A DNA stretch of 64,000 bases from Nephromyces sp. MM_2019 (lineage: Eukaryota > Apicomplexa > Aconoidasida > Nephromycida), in assembly GCA_015657535.1 (NCBI GenBank), contig JADHZB010002018.1:1-64000 (forward strand). Direction: 5' to 3'. The position numbers and the translations under genes are program-made. Positions 1,366 to 56,913 of the stretch are shown here, in pieces (positions within the stretch are counted from its first letter, which is position 1; every line of letters begins with the position of its first letter). The notes beneath the pieces were generated by a model. The model searched no databases, was not told the DNA's origin, and saw nothing but the letters and a program-made list of their open reading frames with translations.

Positions 1366-2759
1366 ATCTTACTTTGATTAAAGGCCTTTATAAATAGCAT
1401 TGAATAATTGACAGATTTCATGAATTAAAAGGCTATACATAAGTTGTTTACATGATGAATATGTGTTAATCGATAGTTTTAGGCTGTAATTATAAGTAAT
1501 GAGTTAATAAACCAAAGATATGCTGTCAGTAAGTTCTTCTTTGGCAATTATTCTAAAAGAGGTGAAAATCTTAGAATTAGAAGTATCCTTAATACATAAA
1601 TTCTTAGTCTTAATCTGAAAATTAATTTTTCATTTATGGTATCTCCTTTTTGGGTAGGTAGGGGTTATGTTTAAAGGCTTTTCACTGTTAGTTTGTTGAG
1701 ATGAAGTTTATGTAGAGATTGAAACTTCTTTTTCGAGTCTTAGTAAGGCTTGAGGAATTTTATATATTAATACCTATTAGTGCCTTAAACAGCTTAGATA
1801 AAAAGTTGTATTGATATGAGATAATATATATGAAATAATGTGAACTTGTTAATTAAATGTTAATGATAATTAATAAATATTTTTTAGCCTCGCAGTAACA
1901 GTATAAATCTTATCTGGTAATTTGAATCTCAGAAACATATCTATATTTTAACTTAAAGGACTGCCTCGATATGAGATTGGATACCTAAATTTAGTAACAT
2001 GTGTTGAATTTAAATAACTAACTTAACTTATATTTATATTAACAAGTTTATAAATACCTTTTTTAGTTGCTCCTCCTTTATATTTTTTACAAAACAAAAT
2101 GGAACAAGTTAAAATGTATCTTATCAATCTAATTTTCAATTAACCTTGAAAATGTTGATTTCTAAATGTAACTTCATTAAGATAAAAAATTTTTGCTTAT
2201 AAATTTCAGGTGACCTTATCATAGTGCCCAGTCAATAAAACAATACTGTAGAGTAAGGTGAAAAAAAAAATTTTACACTTGCCGTGGTATAAATCATTTA
2301 ACTAGGTAAAAAGTTTTAATAGGTTACGAAATTAAGTAATGTTAATGAAATTATCTAAATGTGTGTATATATATAAATAACATTTGAATAATAATATAAA
2401 AAATTTAGTAGAATGGTTATAAAGATCATTAGAAAAATTACATTTTTTTATTTAACAACATATGCCTTATTAAGTAGGAATACCCAAATCAGGAAGTATA
2501 AGAAAATTATTTGAAAATTTAAAATAAATTATTAATGAGGTTAAACAAATTCATAATCCATTTCTATATTACATTTATACAAATAATTACAGATTATATG
2601 ATAAAGGAAAATTACATTGAACTTGAAAATCGTTTATAAATGTGATGTAGTTACATTAAATAGACATGATAAAATATATACCTTAATATACACCTTAATA
2701 TGTTTAATTTGTATATAGATACAGCTCTTGATTACATACAACATAAAAAGCAAGAGAAG
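1366..2759. other. Intergenic region
   Basis: AT-rich, with stops in all frames. No exon chain or RNA gene seen. It is a divergent intergenic region between the RS protein and the aspartic protease, so it should hold both promoters. Confidence 0.5.
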
Positions 2760-4948
2760 ATGTTTGAATTGCTTATATGCCTTATATTTTTTATTCCTAG
2801 TACCGTTTATCCAAGATCGATTATAATTCCACTATCTAAAATACATGAAAAAAATGAATTAAAGCTATTGAAGTCAAATACACACTTTTATACTAACTGG
2901 CTAAACAATCCTAGGTTTAAGCAAATCACTAAGCAATCTCATTTAAATCGTGTCAATGTGCCCCTCAAGGATCAAGTTATCAGTAATAAGAAGCTAGCAA
3001 CATATTTTGGTGAAATTGAAATCGGTATGAATTTAATTACTAACAATTACATCTCTAATTGCTATGCTTATAATCCAAAAGGTGATAATCCAAGAACAAA
3101 ATTCAAAATTCTATTCGACACTGGTTCTTGTGAGTCTTTTGAATTGACTCTCACAAGCCCTAAATATAGCTTCGTAGGTGAATTCTGGGTTCCTGATCAA
3201 TCTTGTTTGAGCAAGCAGTGCCTTAGTCATAATAAATATAAAAGAAGTTCCAGTTTTAAGACCAGATTAGATGAATACGGGATGCCAAGGTCAGTAAAGT
3301 CCTTTAACTAGATTTGAAAAATTTAAAATAAAGTTGTAGTTTGATGAACGTTGAATACTTAAGTGGACAACTCAAAGGATATGATGGTTTGAGATAATTT
3401 TTGACAAAAACAACTATGCTAAATTTAATTAGCTGTTGAAACCGTTTATCTTGGTAGTTTAACTTCCTCAAACACTTCAGTTGGACTTGCAACCCTAATA
3501 GATATTCCCCTTTTACAAGGTTACAATATATTACTTGTCACCACAACATTTTCATACATCGAACTTTAGATTTGGAATGGGTAAGGTTCTCATAAATCTT
3601 AGAGTCTAAAACACTCATTTAGTTTATCATAAAAAGGATGGCATTATAGGATTGGGGTAAATTTGCTAAATATTCAATAAAATATTAAAATTCAGTCTTA
3701 TTTAATAGCTTTAAAAGTGGTGATGATCGAAATAGCTTAGTCGAGCCTTTGTAAATAAAAATTTATGATTCTATGATCAATAAATATCATATTAATAAGC
3801 TTTGACCATCTTATAAATAACAACATACTAAAAGATTTGAGCTTAAAAAGTCAGTTTTCCTATTTCTTGAGAAATGGCAGTGGATCATTAGTTTTTGGTG
3901 ATTTGAGTCCTGAACTCATGGCACATCCGAATACATCTATTAAGTAAGAATACAATAGCTCATATAGACTGAGCAAGGTATTTATTATTCATAAAAAGTT
4001 GGCTTGATGTCGATCCTTCCAAAGGATATTGGTCGATTAAACTTCTAGGGGTCAAGTAATTCTAATCTCCATCACAAAACCAAATATATCTAATCATTAT
4101 TATACAAAGTAAATCGAATTCAATAGCATCTGATGGAATCGATTTAATAAGTTGGGATAAGTTATCTCATAACAAGCTGTCAGGTGATTGTTAAACTCTC
4201 CAGATCTTACTAATCGCTTAGTACTTAGTACTTTTTATAAGCAGGTGTGTCTGACGCCATTATAGATACAGGTGAGTGTGTTTAAATAAATTTTTATTGA
4301 CTATAAATAAAATATTAAAAGGAACATATCTAATATATGCACCACAAGTTAGGAAGTCAAAATTTTTTGAGTAATAATACTATTTTATAGAGTGTTATGG
4401 ACAAACATCTTGGCAACCTGAAAATAAATTCTTGCGAAGAAAAGTGGAATTTACCAACAATAAATTTCTTTTTTGAGAGCAAAAGTACCACATGTAGCTC
4501 ATAATTATATAATTTAAAATATTAAAATCGTTAATGATATTTAGACAACGAAAAAAAAATAGTTCTGGTACCATTGAAACCTGAAGAGTATGTGCTACAG
4601 TTCAAGAATGACGATGGTACTACTGAATGTGTATTGGGTATTGTTCCAGATCAAGTTGACGATGTAAGAGTTTCTAGTGTATTGAGGAGTTTGAAGATTA
4701 AAATAAAATTTAAACCATAGGATTTTGATTTTAAAGGCTGGACACTTGGTCAAGTATGCTTGTTCATCTACCTATTTAAAATATTTACAAGCTGTTATTA
4801 GGTCTTCTTGAACCCATTTTATAGTGTATTTGATAGGGAAAATCTCAAGTTTGGATTAGCCGAAGCTTCGAATAATAGTTTATCTACCCATAGTGAAGCT
4901 TCTGAGTTTCCTCAGTTTCGTGATTTACACAATGGACCAATATCTTAA
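2760..4948 (+). CDS. Aspartic protease, pepsin/plasmepsin-like (A1 family)
   Basis: Secretory aspartyl endopeptidase, 469 aa from 16 exons. I rebuilt them as 2760-3129, 3178-3289, 3340-3386, 3433-3519, 3570-3580, 3637-3656, 3709-3750, 3800-3943, 3999-4055, 4110-4183, 4245-4271, 4322-4347, 4391-4484, 4545-4663, 4721-4753 and 4802-4948; they total 1410 nt. The start at 2760 gives a signal peptide (MFELLICLIFFIPSTVYP); an upstream in-frame Met lies at 2700. Landmarks in order: ATYFGEIEIG, first catalytic FDTGSCEFWVP, flap-like VEYLSGQLKGYD, DGIIGLG, GSGSLVFGDL, second catalytic IIDTGTYLIYAP, LPTINFFFES, a degenerate C-terminal WTLGQVFLNPFYSVFD. Both catalytic Asp are present. The usual DTGS/DTGT context is DTGSC and DTGTY here. 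Intron 1 (48 nt) sits inside the first catalytic motif and is open in frame. It is convergent with the CYB5R gene. Family is near certain; subfamily is not assigned. Confidence 0.93.
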
Positions 4949-12933: not shown

Positions 12934-14715
12934 ATGAGCGAAAACCAACAACATATTGCTGACCAAATTTCTCCTATGATCAATAAAAGCTCGATTTTGA
13001 AATTAGAATTTATAATTAAATCATATATAGCTTTTCTATTTGCTACAGCATACTTCAATCAAACTGAGTCAAAATGTAATTTTACTCCTGCTTCTTTCAT
13101 AAACCATATTCTTAAACCGGAATTAGCTACTCATAAACATATGGTTATAACAATACCAAGATTTATCTGCTATAATGAAATCAATAGCAAAGATAATCTA
13201 CATGAAAATGGACAGAAGATTTTTTACTCTTATCTACAACCATTTGAAAACGATTTTAATAATGAAAATCCTACACACTCAATCTTTAGCAATATATCTA
13301 AAGATGAAGATTACATGGGCATAGCATTGAATTTAGCGCAGAATGCTAAAGGTAGAACGAGACCAAACCCTTTAGTTGGTTGTTGCATTGTTGATCCAAA
13401 TGGCAAAATAATTGGTCAAGGGTACCACCAATATGCTGGAGAATATCATGCCGAAGTAAACGCAATTAGTCAATTTTTAATTTATAGTAATAATGATCTC
13501 AAATCATCCTTTCTCGACTTTGTATACTTAAAAAAAGTTGAAATCGAAGGTCGTAAGGATATGAGACTTTTAGAGTGCATAAATGAATTTTTTGGTAATG
13601 ACATAAGCTATGACTTAAGATCTTACTTTAAAAATTGCACTTTGTATGTAACGCTTGAACCATGTAATCATTATGGGAAAACTCCTCCATGCTCTAACTT
13701 AATTATAAAGTCGGGTTTCGGAAGAGTCGTAATTGGGATTGAAGATCTTAATCCATTAGTTTCAGGTAAAGGGATTCTAAATTTAAAACAAAACGGCGTC
13801 AAAGTTAGATCCAGAATTCTCCTTAAGGACTCCTTCCTGACGAATATTAGCTTTTTCAAGAACATTAATAAAATTAAGACTAAATCATCAAAGATTTCTT
13901 CAAATATAGAATTTCCATTTGGTATAATCAACATTTTAGATCATTTCAAAACGGAAAATGATCTTACTTCATACAACCAATTTGAACTATGTGCAAACAA
14001 GAGTCCAATTCAGGATAATAATAATGATAATATAGAACTTGAGCCTAGTATCAATTGGGGCTCTCTCCTTTTAGAGGAACACTCACAGAATATTGAAAAG
14101 AATTATGATGCCATACTGTTGGATGTTCGCACCCATAGTCTTCAAATTATAAATCAAATTATCGAAAAAATAAATAATAGGGACAGCTTCACTCTTCATG
14201 CTCTACTCTTTAAATCAAAAATTGACTCAGCAGCTCCTGATACAAGCAATAGAAATATTGATTTTAAAAAGCTCAATTTAGAAAATTTTTATGTTAAACT
14301 TGTAAATAATCCTGAATACAATTTACTATTTCTAATGAATAGAAAAGATATTGAAACAATCAAAAGGTTTGAGAAGCATCACAGATCAAGCCTACAAGAC
14401 TTTCAAAGTTCCATAACAGGCCTGGAATCTGGAAGAAAACAAGCAGACTCAGCCACCCAATATATAATGAAAATTGCAAATTTTTTACAGCTCATTGGAA
14501 TGAATGAACTAAATTATATCATATTTGATAAGTATATAATTATGAATTTAATTGCTGAAAAACTCTTTAACCAAATAAACGGCCCGAACAATTTAATTTG
14601 TAATACTCCAGGGTTTATAACTTCTTTATTTAAATATACCAAAAATTCAAAACAAAAGCTTAGATTTATTACTGATAAAAATATAAAATATCGATATCCA
14701 AGGTTAATATCTTGA
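12934..14715 (+). CDS. ribD: RibD-like riboflavin biosynthesis deaminase with divergent C-terminal region
   Basis: Uninterrupted 593-aa frame. Residues about 126-298 are a RibD deaminase domain (diaminohydroxyphosphoribosylaminopyrimidine deaminase, second step of riboflavin synthesis). It shows KGRTRPNPLVGCCIVDP, GQGYHQYAGEYHAEVNAI with the zinc His172 and catalytic Glu174, and TLYVTLEPCNHYGKTPPC with the zinc Cys244 and Cys253, then RVVIGIEDLNPLVSGKG. About 45 extra residues sit between the HAE and Cys motifs. The remaining 295 residues are where RibD_C reductase should be. DAILLD and a C-terminal block of helices fit its general order, but the EGG motif is absent, so reductase activity is doubtful. 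N-terminus: starting at Met15 (12976) gives KLEFIIKSYIAFLFATAYF, signal-like, followed by an Asn/Lys-rich stretch, compatible with apicoplast import. A TGA lies in frame just upstream of the first ATG. It is convergent with MQO. Confidence 0.88.
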   Translation: MSENQQHIADQISPMINKSSILKLEFIIKSYIAFLFATAYFNQTESKCNFTPASFINHILKPELATHKHMVITIPRFICYNEINSKDNLHENGQKIFYSYLQPFENDFNNENPTHSIFSNISKDEDYMGIALNLAQNAKGRTRPNPLVGCCIVDPNGKIIGQGYHQYAGEYHAEVNAISQFLIYSNNDLKSSFLDFVYLKKVEIEGRKDMRLLECINEFFGNDISYDLRSYFKNCTLYVTLEPCNHYGKTPPCSNLIIKSGFGRVVIGIEDLNPLVSGKGILNLKQNGVKVRSRILLKDSFLTNISFFKNINKIKTKSSKISSNIEFPFGIINILDHFKTENDLTSYNQFELCANKSPIQDNNNDNIELEPSINWGSLLLEEHSQNIEKNYDAILLDVRTHSLQIINQIIEKINNRDSFTLHALLFKSKIDSAAPDTSNRNIDFKKLNLENFYVKLVNNPEYNLLFLMNRKDIETIKRFEKHHRSSLQDFQSSITGLESGRKQADSATQYIMKIANFLQLIGMNELNYIIFDKYIIMNLIAEKLFNQINGPNNLICNTPGFITSLFKYTKNSKQKLRFITDKNIKYRYPRLIS

Positions 14716-15046: not shown

Positions 15047-17353
15047 TTATGGATATTCTCCTTCCAATAGTTCCTTTTTGACAAGCTCTTCATTAATTGT
15101 TGCACCGAGTGCTTTACAAATTGCTCTAGCATCTTGATCTGCAGCCCCAATGCAAGTTGTGCCCCCAGGGGAGGGTGTTATGTTAAAGATCATATTAAGG
15201 TCATCTGAGATAAAAATCATTTTAAGGATTTTGATTGAGTAAATAATAATAGGCTTTATGAAAGTTGATAATAAAAAAGTTAATAAACTAGTAATCTTAT
15301 AAATCAAAATTCTTTGATTGTACTTGGTGTAATTTTTCCTTCCCCACCAACAAGCTTTTTTGTTATTTTATCTATAATTTGTGGACGAACTCCACCGAAA
15401 CCCTCAGCGTAAGACAGATCCTCAAGTTTTAGTGATGGGATAATTTTTCGTGCATCCTAATAACATATGATGCCTTGGTACAAATTAATGGTTGTTACCA
15501 AATTATATATCCCTTACCTTTAGGAAAACATTTGTGCAGACATATGGTATTTCAAATAAAAGATTTCTGATCACGTAATTGCGGACTACAGATTTCTGAA
15601 AAAATGAAGAATTTGATAGTGAATAAGTTTAGAATGTAAATTTATAAATTTTTACTTTCATAAGATTCCAATACACTGCGACTAGCTGAGCATCAGGTCT
15701 CAAAACTTCTAAGAATTCTTTTATGGAGCTGTAGTTATATCTTTCCAGCATAGGTAAAGGAAGAGCAGTTGGACCAAATCTTGTTTTGCCTGGAACGAAC
15801 GAGTATATTAGTGATTGTTTATAAAATTTTTCCACTCTATTTACCTGCTTCAACGACGTCTGGGTCACCATGAATAGCAGCGAAAGGGAGATCTGGGTTT
15901 TGTACCGTATATACCTTCCCATTTAGCATTGGAGGTGTAAAGTAGAAGCTACCAGAAACAGGCATGCAACTGTAATTCAAGCCATAGCCTAAACGGTGGG
16001 CCATCATCAATGAATGTCCACATGCGCTTACAACGACATATTTTGCCTGAATGAAGAAAGGTACTCAGATCAGTTAAAAAGTAAAATAATATATTTGTCA
16101 AAACTTACTTTAAAGGTACCACCTTTTGTTTTCAAGGTTATCATGTCTTCCGCCTCAGGTATAATTTCGGTAATTTCAGTATTGAGGAAAATGTTAATCT
16201 GGGTTTAGAGTTTAAAATTTTAAAGCTAAAAGATACGAGACCAAGATTCTTTCAGATTACCTTTTCAGGATTATGAATCTTTGACTGTTCAACAAAGCTT
16301 AAAGAAAGTGTCTTATAATTTACAGCTGTGTGTTCATCAGGTATGAAGATAGCGTTTAAATCTTCAGTTCTCAAGTTGTGGCTATTTAAAAGTGCAACAC
16401 GTGGTTCGACTTCAGCAAGCTAAATACAGAGATATATTAAAAACTCAAAGTGAGGTATAGAATTGAAAAGATATTAGGTTTAGAAGTACTTCTGATTTTC
16501 CAAGGAGCTGCATTCCTTTGAAAGTTCCCTTAAATTGATGAAATCTATTTTCGAGAAATTCACATTCAGCTTCACCAACTGCCATGACCATTTTCTGTAA
16601 TTTTTGTACAACTCTGGATAAAATCCATATATTATAAATAAAAAAAGTTTGTTACTAATTAATTACAAAATGAAGTTAATTTCTCACTGACTTATCCTGA
16701 TTGCTTTTTGGTAGCTTTGTCGCATAGTTTCTAAGCATGTCAGCAAACCTCTTCACTGATCCAGCCTTGCTAATAGTATAATTTGTTTCAATGTCCCCTG
16801 TGATGTAAATTAAATTAATTAGTGGGAATTTTTTGATTAGGTTAATAAAAAAGTTAGTATAAGTATATATACCACAGTGAATTGTTTGGCTATTGTTGTT
16901 GGCTGCTGAAGCTACCATTGCAAAGTCACTTCTTCGTTCACATATTCCAATCTTGGACAAATCTGTTAATTGTTTTATATTTGCCAGACTAAAAGATTTG
17001 TTAAGTCCCCTTCAAGGGTTATAAAAAGTAATAGATTGGTATATCTAGCATCTTTGCCAAACCAACTTACTTGTGAATCTGCTTAAATAGTAAAGAAGAG
17101 CTGTTCCAGTGACACCTCCACCAACGATAAAAACATCATAGACATCTGAAGTAGCTTTATTCTTAGGCTTAACATCTTTTTGCTCTCTTAAAAAGTTAGA
17201 AGATGTGTCTGTATTTAGTGAAACATTAGCTTGAGTTGAGAAAGAGGCATGGAAACTATTCAGAGCTGTTTGTGGGTAAAGTATATTTGATATGTTTCTG
17301 TTTGAAAAACAATTAGGGAAGCGAGTTCCTAGCAATTTTGAAGCTACAACCAT
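15047..17353 (-). CDS. MQO: Malate:quinone oxidoreductase
   Basis: FAD enzyme of the inner mitochondrial membrane that oxidises malate to oxaloacetate and reduces ubiquinone; it replaces NAD-malate dehydrogenase in the apicomplexan TCA cycle. About ten exons. The first (17353 to about 17067) has an N-terminal extension like a mitochondrial presequence, then the FAD-binding [20 protein letters not shown]. Next come [32 protein letters not shown] (a family signature), exons with [18 protein letters not shown] and [20 protein letters not shown], then [62 protein letters not shown], and the C-terminal [19 protein letters not shown]. The exon 1 donor is uncertain: the perfect GTAAGT at 17070 breaks the phase, whereas GTTGGT four nt downstream keeps it. 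Family is certain. Confidence 0.94.
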
Positions 17354-18168
17354 TTTTGGGTAAAGTTAGACTTAGGAGCGCCGAGTATAGGTACAAAAAA
17401 ATAGTCAATTAAACAAGACGAAAGATAAGAGATTTGTAAAGCTTCATTATGCATATTCTTTTTCAAGAATTCATAAGAAGTTAAGAACAATGGGTGTTGT
17501 GCAAAGTTCTTTACCAAGTAGTTCTGAAAAGCCTACATACAGCTCTCGTTTATTTTCAATTGAATAACTAGATTATTCTACTCAACGCAGTTTTCAGTCT
17601 AGTAAGAGCTTAGCATCTAAATTGATGTGTGGCAACCTTCACTATTAAAGCCAACATTCAGTTGAGTGGCATTTAGCAGACCTAGCTGCCATTTTTAGAT
17701 TGTTTTTTGGGGAAATATGTCATTATTAAAAACTAAGCGTTAGCTCTTGAAGAAATGCAACATTTTGAAAAAGTATTACAGTACTTTTTTTTTTATAGGA
17801 CCCCTTAGGTTGCATATACTTGGTTATTAAATTTAAGAGTTTAAGATAAGCATCTGAGTGAACTATATATATAACTTTACGAAAGCTTAAACTAGCTACT
17901 CATTTCTGTTATATCTTTTAGTTTTTAAGCTATATATAAATTGAGTAAAAAGTAAATTGAATCTAGCAAGGCAAAGTAGTTGAGTAATGATTAGTTAGCT
18001 TTCAATGTTAATCTTGGCTCTTGTCAAATCGCTATGTTTAGAACTGCTGAATCTTAATATTAAAGCGTAGATACAGTCCCAAATTATTAATTTAAGATTT
18101 ATTGTTTTAAAAAATTGATTTAAGGATATAAAACTAACTCCAAATCCTGATTGAAAGCAATCGAATTG
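17354..18168. other. Divergent intergenic region
   Basis: Promoter region shared by MQO and the lectin-fold gene. Contains AGCTATATATAA at about 17930, a related TAGCTACT at about 17892 and TTAGCTTT at about 17996. No coding signal. Confidence 0.45.
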
Positions 18169-50434: not shown

Positions 50435-51607
50435 TTATCTTTTTTGAAGTAATTTTATCATACATGTATATTTACCTTGCCAAATGTTACTTCTGGGTAG
50501 ACTATTTCTCAAAAATTTTCGTGCAAGTCTTAGAGGCCTTGTTTGAAGTAGGAAAACAGTTGGTATGGTGAGAATAAAACCCTTTTTCACGTGTTCATAA
50601 TCAGGCCCAAAGTGATGCAAATATAATAGCAAGATAGCTAATTTTGAGGTTGGTTTCCATTGGATATTAAAATTGATAGAAAACTTCTCGAAAATCCTTT
50701 GTTTCAGTGTATGTGGGAAAGCTACATTACATGGGCTGATTTTATATTGATTAAGATTTGTCAAAGTGTTATTGCCCCCATAAGCTATTTCTAGTGACTC
50801 AAGATACTCATGGAAATCTTCAGTTAAATTGCTTTTTTTGATAAAGTCCTTTATCTTTATCATCTTTTCGTAGAGATCCTTATTGAGTATATCTGAATGA
50901 CCTTGTTCAGAGAAGCTATTAAGTCGTGTGGATTGGTCCTGGCTATTATAAAGTGGATAGCCAGAGATTCCGGAATCCAATTGTCTTAATAGTCTATCAA
51001 TAATAAGTAGGTAAGCAATTATTTTTCCAGATTTATTCGTTTGGTTCAGGTTATTTAAGGAGTCGATTTTTAATGATATTGGGACAGTAAACATATCAAG
51101 GATTAGAGATATAACTCCATTTTGAGATATGACTTCTTTAAAGCTTTTTATTTCATTGAGTTTAGTTTCAGGAGTACACGTTATTGTAGTATTGTTGATG
51201 ATCAATTTCTGTAAGAAAGTTGGTGGATTACCTGGGAATCGATCTCGAATTTCCTCTTTCAGCTGTCGAAATGTGAAATTGGGATTGATGATTAATTCTA
51301 TTGAATTATCAATTCCTTCTAAACCAGTTGATGTACTTATAATAATCTTGAAAAAATCATCATTGTCAGACTTGGTGTGGTTGACTGACTTGGTAAGAAC
51401 ATATGTGATATTGTTCACAAATCTGTCATAATAACCAGAGCACAGCACACTATACTGATCTCGGTTGGATACTTTGTGGGTTAATGCGATTTCAGGTCTT
51501 GATACACCATGCTTCGAAAACATCGAAAGATTGCCTTGAACAACATAGCCCCAATTAACTACATATATTACTAATAACACAAAGACAAATTTGTATTTAT
51601 GAATCAT
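50435..51607 (-). CDS. Secreted ubiquitin-like domain protein
   Basis: Single exon, 390 aa. The N-terminal MIHKYKFVFVLLVIYVVNWG is a signal peptide or signal anchor. Residues about 84-173 can be laid over ubiquitin: FFKIIISTSTG (strands 1-2 turn), SIELIINPNFTFRQLKEEIR (strand 2 and helix), FPGNPPTFLQKLIINNTTIT (PP turn, then the LIF strand), and GVISLILDMF (last strand). The domain has no C-terminal Gly-Gly. Then a helical region, NLTEDFHEYLESLEIAYGG, and hydrophobic stretches near the C-terminus (LAILLLYLHHFGPDY, GFILTIPTVFLLQ) follow, ending basic. A ubiquitin-like fold with a secretory leader recalls the plastid ubiquitin-like protein PUBL of apicomplexan apicoplast import, but the size, the tail and the missing Gly make this an inference only. 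Confidence 0.8.
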   Translation of the reverse strand: MIHKYKFVFVLLVIYVVNWGYVVQGNLSMFSKHGVSRPEIALTHKVSNRDQYSVLCSGYYDRFVNNITYVLTKSVNHTKSDNDDFFKIIISTSTGLEGIDNSIELIINPNFTFRQLKEEIRDRFPGNPPTFLQKLIINNTTITCTPETKLNEIKSFKEVISQNGVISLILDMFTVPISLKIDSLNNLNQTNKSGKIIAYLLIIDRLLRQLDSGISGYPLYNSQDQSTRLNSFSEQGHSDILNKDLYEKMIKIKDFIKKSNLTEDFHEYLESLEIAYGGNNTLTNLNQYKISPCNVAFPHTLKQRIFEKFSINFNIQWKPTSKLAILLLYLHHFGPDYEHVKKGFILTIPTVFLLQTRPLRLARKFLRNSLPRSNIWQGKYTCMIKLLQKR

Positions 51608-55920: not shown

Positions 55921-56913
55921 TTAGTTGTACAATACATTCTTGATAAGGATTTCATTAAGTACAGGGTCAAAATTGCTGAATACATTCCCATCAGTAATGT
56001 TTTTAGTCTCCTTCGGGAAGAATATGTTATTATTTTTTAGTATATTAGTATTTAAACTTGGCTGTTTAAGCCGATTAATTGATTTAATGGTAGAATATAT
56101 GGAGAGGTGAGATAACCAACTTTCGTTTGAGTCCATGTTTAAATCTTGAGTCATTAACTCCTCAATTTGATCAATTTTAATACGGGTCAATAGCTGTCTA
56201 TGACCTAACAATTTTCGATAACGCTTTTTAGGTTTATGTTTGAGAATTTTGAGTTTTTCGCCTTTAAAATGATCCAAAACAGTTGCTATAACACGAATTT
56301 TCTGTAGAAAAGGTTGTCCAACCCATGATCGTTGATCTGGTGACTTATAAAATAAAACACGATGTAAGTGAATTTTGCTTCCAATGTCTTGAGAAACTCT
56401 ATTCACATCATAGTAACGTCCTTTTTCTATCCATAGCTGCTTTCCACTGATTTGAACTATTGCAAAGGATCCAGATCTATCCTTACCATCATCAAGTTTA
56501 TATAATTTTGATATTGCGGGTGAAATTTTACTATTGATTGGTATTAGTTGTTGTGGTTTAGATACATCATATCTGTTATTTTTCTGTGATTGTTGTGATT
56601 TCAACAGCTCTGATGAACTAAGTTGCTGCTGTGCATAAAACCCTGATTCTGAGGTAGCACCGAGCTTTTGTTGTCCTGTTAGATGCTGGTTGAAGCTATG
56701 ATAATAATTTGTTTGTATTGTTCTAATTTTCTTTTGATTAGAGAAATTATCGTGTGCGTATTTGCTTTTCCGTTGGTAAGAGAAGTGGTTTGACCTTGGA
56801 TTTGTTAGGTATGTTACACATTTTTGATTTAAAGTGTATGTAAAGATAGGATGATTTGCTATGAAACAGAGGAGGTATATAACTAAAGATTTATAGCATT
56901 TTAGTTTGAACAT
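55921..56913 (-). CDS. rpl21: Ribosomal protein bL21, apicoplast-type
   Basis: Large-subunit ribosomal protein of bacterial type, here nucleus-encoded for an organelle ribosome. Single exon, 330 aa, about three times the bacterial length. The L21 domain is at residues about 149-250: SFAIVQISGKQLWIEKGRYY, DIGSKIHLHRVLFY, WVGQPFLQKIRVIATVLDHF, then KILKHKPKKRYRKLLGHRQL and LTRIKIDQI. The basic KHKPKKRYRKLLGHRQ block is the bL21 signature for 23S rRNA contact. The N-terminal 148 residues begin with a signal peptide (MFKLKCYKSLVIYLLCFIAN) followed by a Lys/Asn/Ser/Gln-rich stretch, as in bipartite apicoplast leaders. A mitochondrial location is less likely given that leader. The 80-residue C-terminal extension is of unknown role. 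Confidence 0.93.
   Translation of the reverse strand: MFKLKCYKSLVIYLLCFIANHPIFTYTLNQKCVTYLTNPRSNHFSYQRKSKYAHDNFSNQKKIRTIQTNYYHSFNQHLTGQQKLGATSESGFYAQQQLSSSELLKSQQSQKNNRYDVSKPQQLIPINSKISPAISKLYKLDDGKDRSGSFAIVQISGKQLWIEKGRYYDVNRVSQDIGSKIHLHRVLFYKSPDQRSWVGQPFLQKIRVIATVLDHFKGEKLKILKHKPKKRYRKLLGHRQLLTRIKIDQIEELMTQDLNMDSNESWLSHLSIYSTIKSINRLKQPSLNTNILKNNNIFFPKETKNITDGNVFSNFDPVLNEILIKNVLYN

Follow-up and report, generated by a model that had tools for sequence, protein, structure and literature searches.

The open reading frame at positions 12934-14715 raises the question of whether an apicomplexan can still carry out part of vitamin B2 synthesis and, if so, which step its enzyme performs and where the gene came from. 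The riboflavin pathway is reported lost in well-studied apicomplexans, and available excerpts of PMC6668581 describe riboflavin synthesis in the plastid of chromerids. The gene lies on a contig of 104,606 bases in an assembly of 48.28 Mb and 1127 contigs, and the 64,000 nucleotides of this contig that were analysed are referred to below as the window. We favor, at about two chances in three, the reading that the product is a RibD acting as a deaminase only, that its host is an apicomplexan (most likely a nephromycid) and that the gene was inherited from a photosynthetic, plastid-bearing ancestor. We infer the catalysis, location and descent of this riboflavin branch, which is probably an inherited one seated in the apicoplast. 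The features of the locus are as follows.

12934..14715, + strand: RibD-like deaminase gene, a single open frame of 593 aa plus stop (601 codons from stop to stop)
12994..13056, + strand: N-terminal hydrophobic stretch (residues 21-41), a weak candidate signal or anchor (hydropathy 1.56; helix in the structure model with pLDDT ~70)
13297..13872, + strand: deaminase domain (residues 122-313)
13447..13455, + strand: HAE zinc/catalytic motif (residues 172-174), invariant in the alignment with 44 homologues
13483..13626, + strand: insertion of ~48 residues (184-231) between HAE and PCxxC, without counterpart in the homologues displayed
13663..13692, + strand: zinc ligands Cys244 and Cys253 in PCNHYGKTPPC, from motif reading and the homologue alignment
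13873..14712, + strand: C-terminal half (residues 314-593), coding, without a recognisable RibD_C reductase
14071..14133, + strand: possible reductase-domain remnant (residues 380-400, LEEHSQNIEKNYDAILLDVRT; hhalign E 0.0097, probability 4%)

The stop-free run at this locus is 601 codons long, whereas the longest in 100 copies of the window shuffled under a Markov model was 162 codons, and a RibD profile search of the assembly gave a single match at E<=0.001. Its translation hits PF00383 (E 1.6e-20, 73.3 bits, cut-off 25) and the ribD model TIGR00326 (E 8.3e-48, 163.3 bits, cut-off 156.35). The TIGR00326 match spans positions 1-138 of the 343 in the model and so is confined to the deaminase half. 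The preliminary description had reported a RibD frame with all key deaminase residues, and these are indeed present, with HAE at residues 172-174 and both Cys244 and Cys253 within LEPCNHYGKTPPC. In an alignment with 44 homologues, hand-picked for spread from the best 120 of 2650 matches, the deaminase half keeps 36 of 37 conserved columns, where a conserved column is one kept in at least 90% of the 44. The retained residues include the RibD-type PNPLVG, HYGKTPPC and NPLVSGKG, which together with the HAE ... PCxxxxxTPPC zinc motif place the protein in the RibD deaminase family. The structure prediction gave a confident model for the deaminase domain, and the closest solved structures are bacterial RibD/RibG. 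Judged by these residues, the RibD-type deaminase domain is complete and its active site intact.

Compared with bacterial RibD/RibG (B. subtilis RibG, 4g3m/2b3z; E. coli RibD, 2g6v), the protein has the same deaminase fold and zinc motif and agrees at the 36 of 37 positions, but it lacks a recognisable NADPH-dependent reductase half and adds the ~48-residue insertion and an N-terminal extension of ~120 residues. The insertion was judged against alternate rows of the 44-homologue alignment.

That the C-terminal half has lost the usual reductase motif was also proposed earlier, and the alignment bears this out, as only 5 of 15 strongly conserved columns are kept in the reductase half compared with 36 of 37 in the deaminase half. 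A Pfam search found no RibD_C domain (PF01872) in the protein, so that the second domain of a bifunctional RibD, with its conserved residues, is missing. Searching with the C-terminal half returned no homologue among 1839 candidates at E<=1, and its structure model is of low confidence and biased by its alignment. The proportion of purines at codon position 1 is 0.63 in this half. The 21 residues of LEEHSQNIEKNYDAILLDVRT were aligned by hhalign with the aRxxvHxLRxxxDAILVGxxT stretch of RibD, which is suggestive only of a relic of the reductase domain. Since the deaminase columns are kept and most of the reductase columns are not, the protein is most likely a deaminase only, and because the reductase signature is lost the next step would be performed by another enzyme.

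Such a division of labor has a precedent. Plant PyrD carries a degenerate reductase half. In plants the deaminase PyrD and the reductase PyrR are separate proteins, according to the available parts of PMC12840815 and PMC10964609, and because plants split both steps in this way the present protein may work like PyrD, deaminating only and leaving reduction to another protein. The analogy differs on the reductase side, as no PyrR-type reductase domain was matched in the assembly, which is a weak negative.

A RibD working in riboflavin synthesis would need an enzyme that makes its substrate, and the partner ribA, for which the preliminary description had proposed a search, was found in the genome assembly as a GTP cyclohydrolase II (GCHII) fused to DHBP synthase (DHBPS). 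A PF00925 search gave a single match, on contig C5 (E 3.2e-46), within a frame of 523 codons that encodes GCHII followed by DHBPS (PF00925, E 1.2e-46; PF00926, E 3.3e-62). At columns conserved to at least 95% across 120 relatives, this RibBA agrees in 59 of 64 for GCHII and in 54 of 67 for DHBPS, and it retains the Cys-x10-Cys-x-Cys zinc motif, RENEGD and RRGHTEA. Both activities that open a plastid riboflavin pathway are thus encoded in the assembly, and we infer that they belong to the same organism as RibD.

Among the matches listed, the four best are a protein of Cardiosporidium cionae that carries the label RibBA in the protein database (45% identity over 92%), the EukProt transcripts GHVN and GHVL, and Chromera velia, and the named matches listed after these are ochrophyte algae. 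The GCHII-DHBPS order is common to all six RibBA relatives checked; Cardiosporidium has this order too, and Chromera RibBA agrees in type and domain order. A quick tree was built from 121 rows (our sequence and the best 120 of 7999 matches), and in it our RibBA, Cardiosporidium, Chromera, GHVN and GHVL fall on one side of a branch with SH-aLRT 97. Our RibBA adjoins that of Cardiosporidium with support 92, at a point where long branches meet and where our sequence, Cardiosporidium and Chromera all have an unusual letter make-up.

With the substrate-making enzyme present, the zinc site intact and the RibD-type residues kept, deamination of the RibA product would be the expected job of the protein. 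In the reading we prefer, RibBA, whose gene lies elsewhere in the assembly, would open GTP. RibD would then use its HAE...PCxxC zinc site to deaminate 2,5-diamino-6-ribosylamino-4(3H)-pyrimidinone 5'-phosphate. The product would be 5-amino-6-ribosylamino-2,4-pyrimidinedione 5'-phosphate, feeding riboflavin synthesis. Reduction would have been handed to another enzyme after the reductase half of RibD decayed, and the later pathway would end in riboflavin. Alternatively, the deaminase could have been recruited for another task, for example to salvage or modify some other aminopyrimidine or nucleotide, its new specificity being conferred by the divergent C-terminal half and the insertion. The size of the insertion and the lack of a homologue for the C-terminal half (1839 candidates, E<=1) would fit such a change, but the retention of PNPLVG, HYGKTPPC and NPLVSGKG and the presence in the assembly of RibBA, the supplier of the RibD substrate, make it very unlikely.

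The location of the two enzymes can be judged from their N-termini. By hydropathy, the start of RibBA, MHYFIVLLFFSILPLAMA, makes a strong candidate for a signal peptide, with a 15-residue peak of 2.66, compared with 1.56 for RibD (residues 21-35) and 1.96 for the ribosomal protein L21 described below. RibBA is likely to sit in the apicoplast. The signal-like N-terminus claimed for RibD holds in part, since a hydrophobic stretch is present but is only weak by hydropathy, and it gives a faint hint that RibD may be targeted to the apicoplast. The N-terminal 121 residues of RibD gave no Pfam match above cut-off; a DNA_pol_phi hit to them (14.6 bits, below the cut-off of 27.6) was taken as chance.

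The origin of RibD is harder to read from the protein itself. All of the best 120 of 2650 homologues carry PF00383 plus PF01872, and the few of these 120 whose label names an organism or a MAG are bacterial, with none labelled eukaryotic; calling the homologues bacterial rests on these few labels and on domain make-up. Identity reaches 45% over the deaminase domain among the best 120 of 2650 matches, and in the tree alignment Fonticella (Bacillota) comes highest, with 51% over 150 columns. The RibD tree that had been suggested as a check was run with our sequence and 80 prokaryote loci drawn from at least 596 relatives, with one of the 80 labelled archaeal and with no eukaryotic RibD. Our sequence sits on the longest branch, outside every supported group. 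The nearest rows by path span several phyla, and only 6 of 78 inner branches are supported.

These data bear on whether RibD was gained horizontally from a bacterium or is bacterial contamination. The two-domain make-up of all 120 listed homologues (best 120 of 2650), the bacterial identity of the few labelled ones and the 45% and 51% identities are what such a gain would leave behind, and a mostly unsupported tree has room for a donor. However, the long branch outside every supported set of the 80 prokaryote loci argues against any of them being a very recent donor. The acquisition of RibD that had been considered earlier is thus not supported in the form of a recent gain from a particular bacterial group; a transfer from one given group was set aside for want of a supported grouping, though in a tree that is mostly unsupported. 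The RibBA partner groups with Cardiosporidium and Chromera, and the contig is GC-poor, with eukaryotic genes split into exon-like pieces, both of which argue against a bacterial source. Taken with the gene content of the contig given below, we consider horizontal gain or contamination extremely unlikely. A phage source was likewise rejected, as it would rest on two distant Acinetobacter phage records with 32% identity over 29% of the protein.

Because no eukaryotic RibD match is listed and the RibD tree lacks support, the descent of RibD has to be read from RibBA. The affinities of RibBA and the plastid pathway of chromerids point to inheritance of RibD from the plastid ancestor. No protein with a Cardiosporidium label appears among the listed RibD homologues (best 120 of 2650) or among the candidates for the C-terminal half.

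The contig itself looks apicomplexan. GC in the window ranges from 0.23 to 0.34 in 2-kb steps, and many genes run in successive short frames that we read as exons. Pfam-supported pieces include a cap-guanine methyltransferase, an E2 enzyme, a DnaJ domain, an NAD-binding oxidoreductase domain and a HAD-type hydrolase; the last lies in an apparent P-type ATPase, named from reading the translation. No tRNAs were found in the window, and no RNA families at the gathering score. The window also encodes the following protein.

55921..56913, - strand: bacterial-type ribosomal protein L21 with a signal-like N-terminus (PF00829, E 5.6e-28; hydropathy 1.96)

The L21 match covers residues 151-251 of 331, leaving a long N-terminal extension, and the protein reads as an apicoplast ribosomal protein, a location predicted from its sequence. 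These features support the earlier claim of an apicomplexan-type genome. Bacterial contamination, which would have undone that claim, is unlikely given a low-GC contig with exon-split eukaryotic genes and a signal-bearing L21.

The assembly as a whole probably mixes more than one species. GC in 24 sampled stretches fell at 0.24-0.32 in 13, at 0.354 in one and at 0.40-0.46 in 10; six of the 24 were gene-chosen or on the contig of the window, and the other 18 split 9, 8 and 1. RibD as well as RibBA falls within the AT-rich group. A search for urate oxidase (PF01014) found eight matches, spread over three contigs (C548, C1090 and C1018). The C1018 uricase has a GC of ~0.28-0.30 like the window, with one match in an open frame and the other with six internal stops, which represent either introns or decay. 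The other two uricase contigs have a GC of ~0.42-0.47. It is this bimodal GC, with uricase in both groups, that indicates a mixture. The gene structures of the uricases also differ, with one 364-codon frame holding two matches (GC ~0.46) and two contigs carrying the gene in pieces (GC ~0.43 and ~0.30). Since the assembly looks mixed, base composition and gene style are all that assigns RibD and RibBA to a single organism. As RibBA and RibD have one match each while uricase occurs on three contigs, the species in the assembly may differ in keeping riboflavin genes.

Our best guess for the host of the RibD gene is a nephromycid (the Nephromyces/Cardiosporidium group), based on uricase, low GC and the RibBA tree. 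In the available parts of PMC6320678, a table marks urate oxidase in Vitrella, Chromera, Cardiosporidium and Nephromyces but leaves the columns Tg, Pf and Cp unmarked. The uricase found in the assembly is therefore what a nephromycid would show, but it counts as support and not as proof, because chromerids have the enzyme as well and it is linked to the organism of the window by GC only. A corallicolid-type apicomplexan was considered and set aside, as the chlorophyll-enzyme family PF00148 had no match in the assembly, from which an organellar contig may be missing.

While chromerids (Chromera, Vitrella) are photosynthetic and are reported to make riboflavin, only the first steps were found in this assembly. 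Searches of the 48.3 Mb with family models gave no match for a RibD_C reductase, none for lumazine synthase (RibH) by two models and an exact degenerate DNA motif (0 hits), and none for riboflavin synthase (RibE) by one model and an exact degenerate DNA motif (0 hits). The family searches read the genome exon by exon without introns, and a single substitution or an intron within the motif would hide a gene from the RibH and RibE patterns. Riboflavin kinase (PF01687), searched as a positive control, gave one candidate and none at E<=0.001. The suggested checks for a RibD-type reductase and for ribE/ribH were thus run and came back empty together with their control. Because the control gave no match either and the searches ignore introns, these absences are weak and do not show an incomplete pathway.

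The same absences are nevertheless what would be expected of a pathway relic, in which RibBA and RibD persist, the reductase, RibH and RibE are truly gone, and the remaining enzymes are on their way out or supply intermediates to a bacterial endosymbiont or the host. Such a reading would agree with the partial riboflavin pathways, and nothing more complete, reported for Cardiosporidium cionae genomic data (Hunter et al., 2020; PMC7737231), where the available text does not name the enzymes, and with the bacterial endosymbionts carried by Cardiosporidium and Nephromyces (available text of PMC7737231). However, the missing kinase suggests that intron-split genes may be overlooked, and RibBA and RibD keep most of their conserved residues, which argues against decay. 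We therefore regard a relic as unlikely. A split pathway is a further and rather improbable idea, in which the plastid would make the deaminated pyrimidine phosphate and dihydroxybutanone phosphate, and the endosymbionts or host would carry out the reduction and the last two steps. If true, such patchwork riboflavin synthesis would be a plastid function outside the four core apicoplast pathways.

How much of this was already known can be judged in part from the literature. A partial riboflavin pathway in nephromycids is already in print for Cardiosporidium. The preliminary description had asked whether close homologues are known across Apicomplexa, and this is so to the extent of that partial pathway and of the Cardiosporidium RibBA, but not for RibD, whose listed matches carry no eukaryotic label. 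Among titles and abstract openings, with limited journal coverage, no description of an apicomplexan RibD was found. The apicoplast is described with four core pathways, i.e., heme, Fe-S, isoprenoid and fatty acid synthesis, and the word riboflavin is absent from the main text of PMC6733595 and PMC6722601, two papers on apicomplexan plastid metabolism, as far as that text was available.

A nephromycid with RibBA and a deaminase-only RibD, the reading we prefer, would suggest that loss of the riboflavin pathway in Apicomplexa was not one ancient event. This would resemble purine degradation, for which the available parts of PMC6320678 report that loss was not a single ancient event. The two enzymes would also be a possible added reason to keep a plastid. 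It is now directly testable whether nephromycids make their own vitamin B2, alone or jointly with their endosymbionts.

Three other frames in the window were noted in passing. The first, at 17045-17365 on the - strand, resembles by eye the FAD-binding start of a malate:quinone oxidoreductase-like protein and has no Pfam match. The second, a 390-aa frame at 50435-51607 on the - strand, has a signal-like start and a middle part that resembles a ubiquitin-like fold by eye, also with no Pfam match; a comparison with the ubiquitin-like protein of the apicomplexan plastid may be worthwhile. The third, at 2700-3308 on the + strand, has a signal-like start followed by DTGSC and scores 18 bits against the eukaryotic aspartyl protease model (cut-off 19.9), and is probably the first exon of an aspartyl protease.
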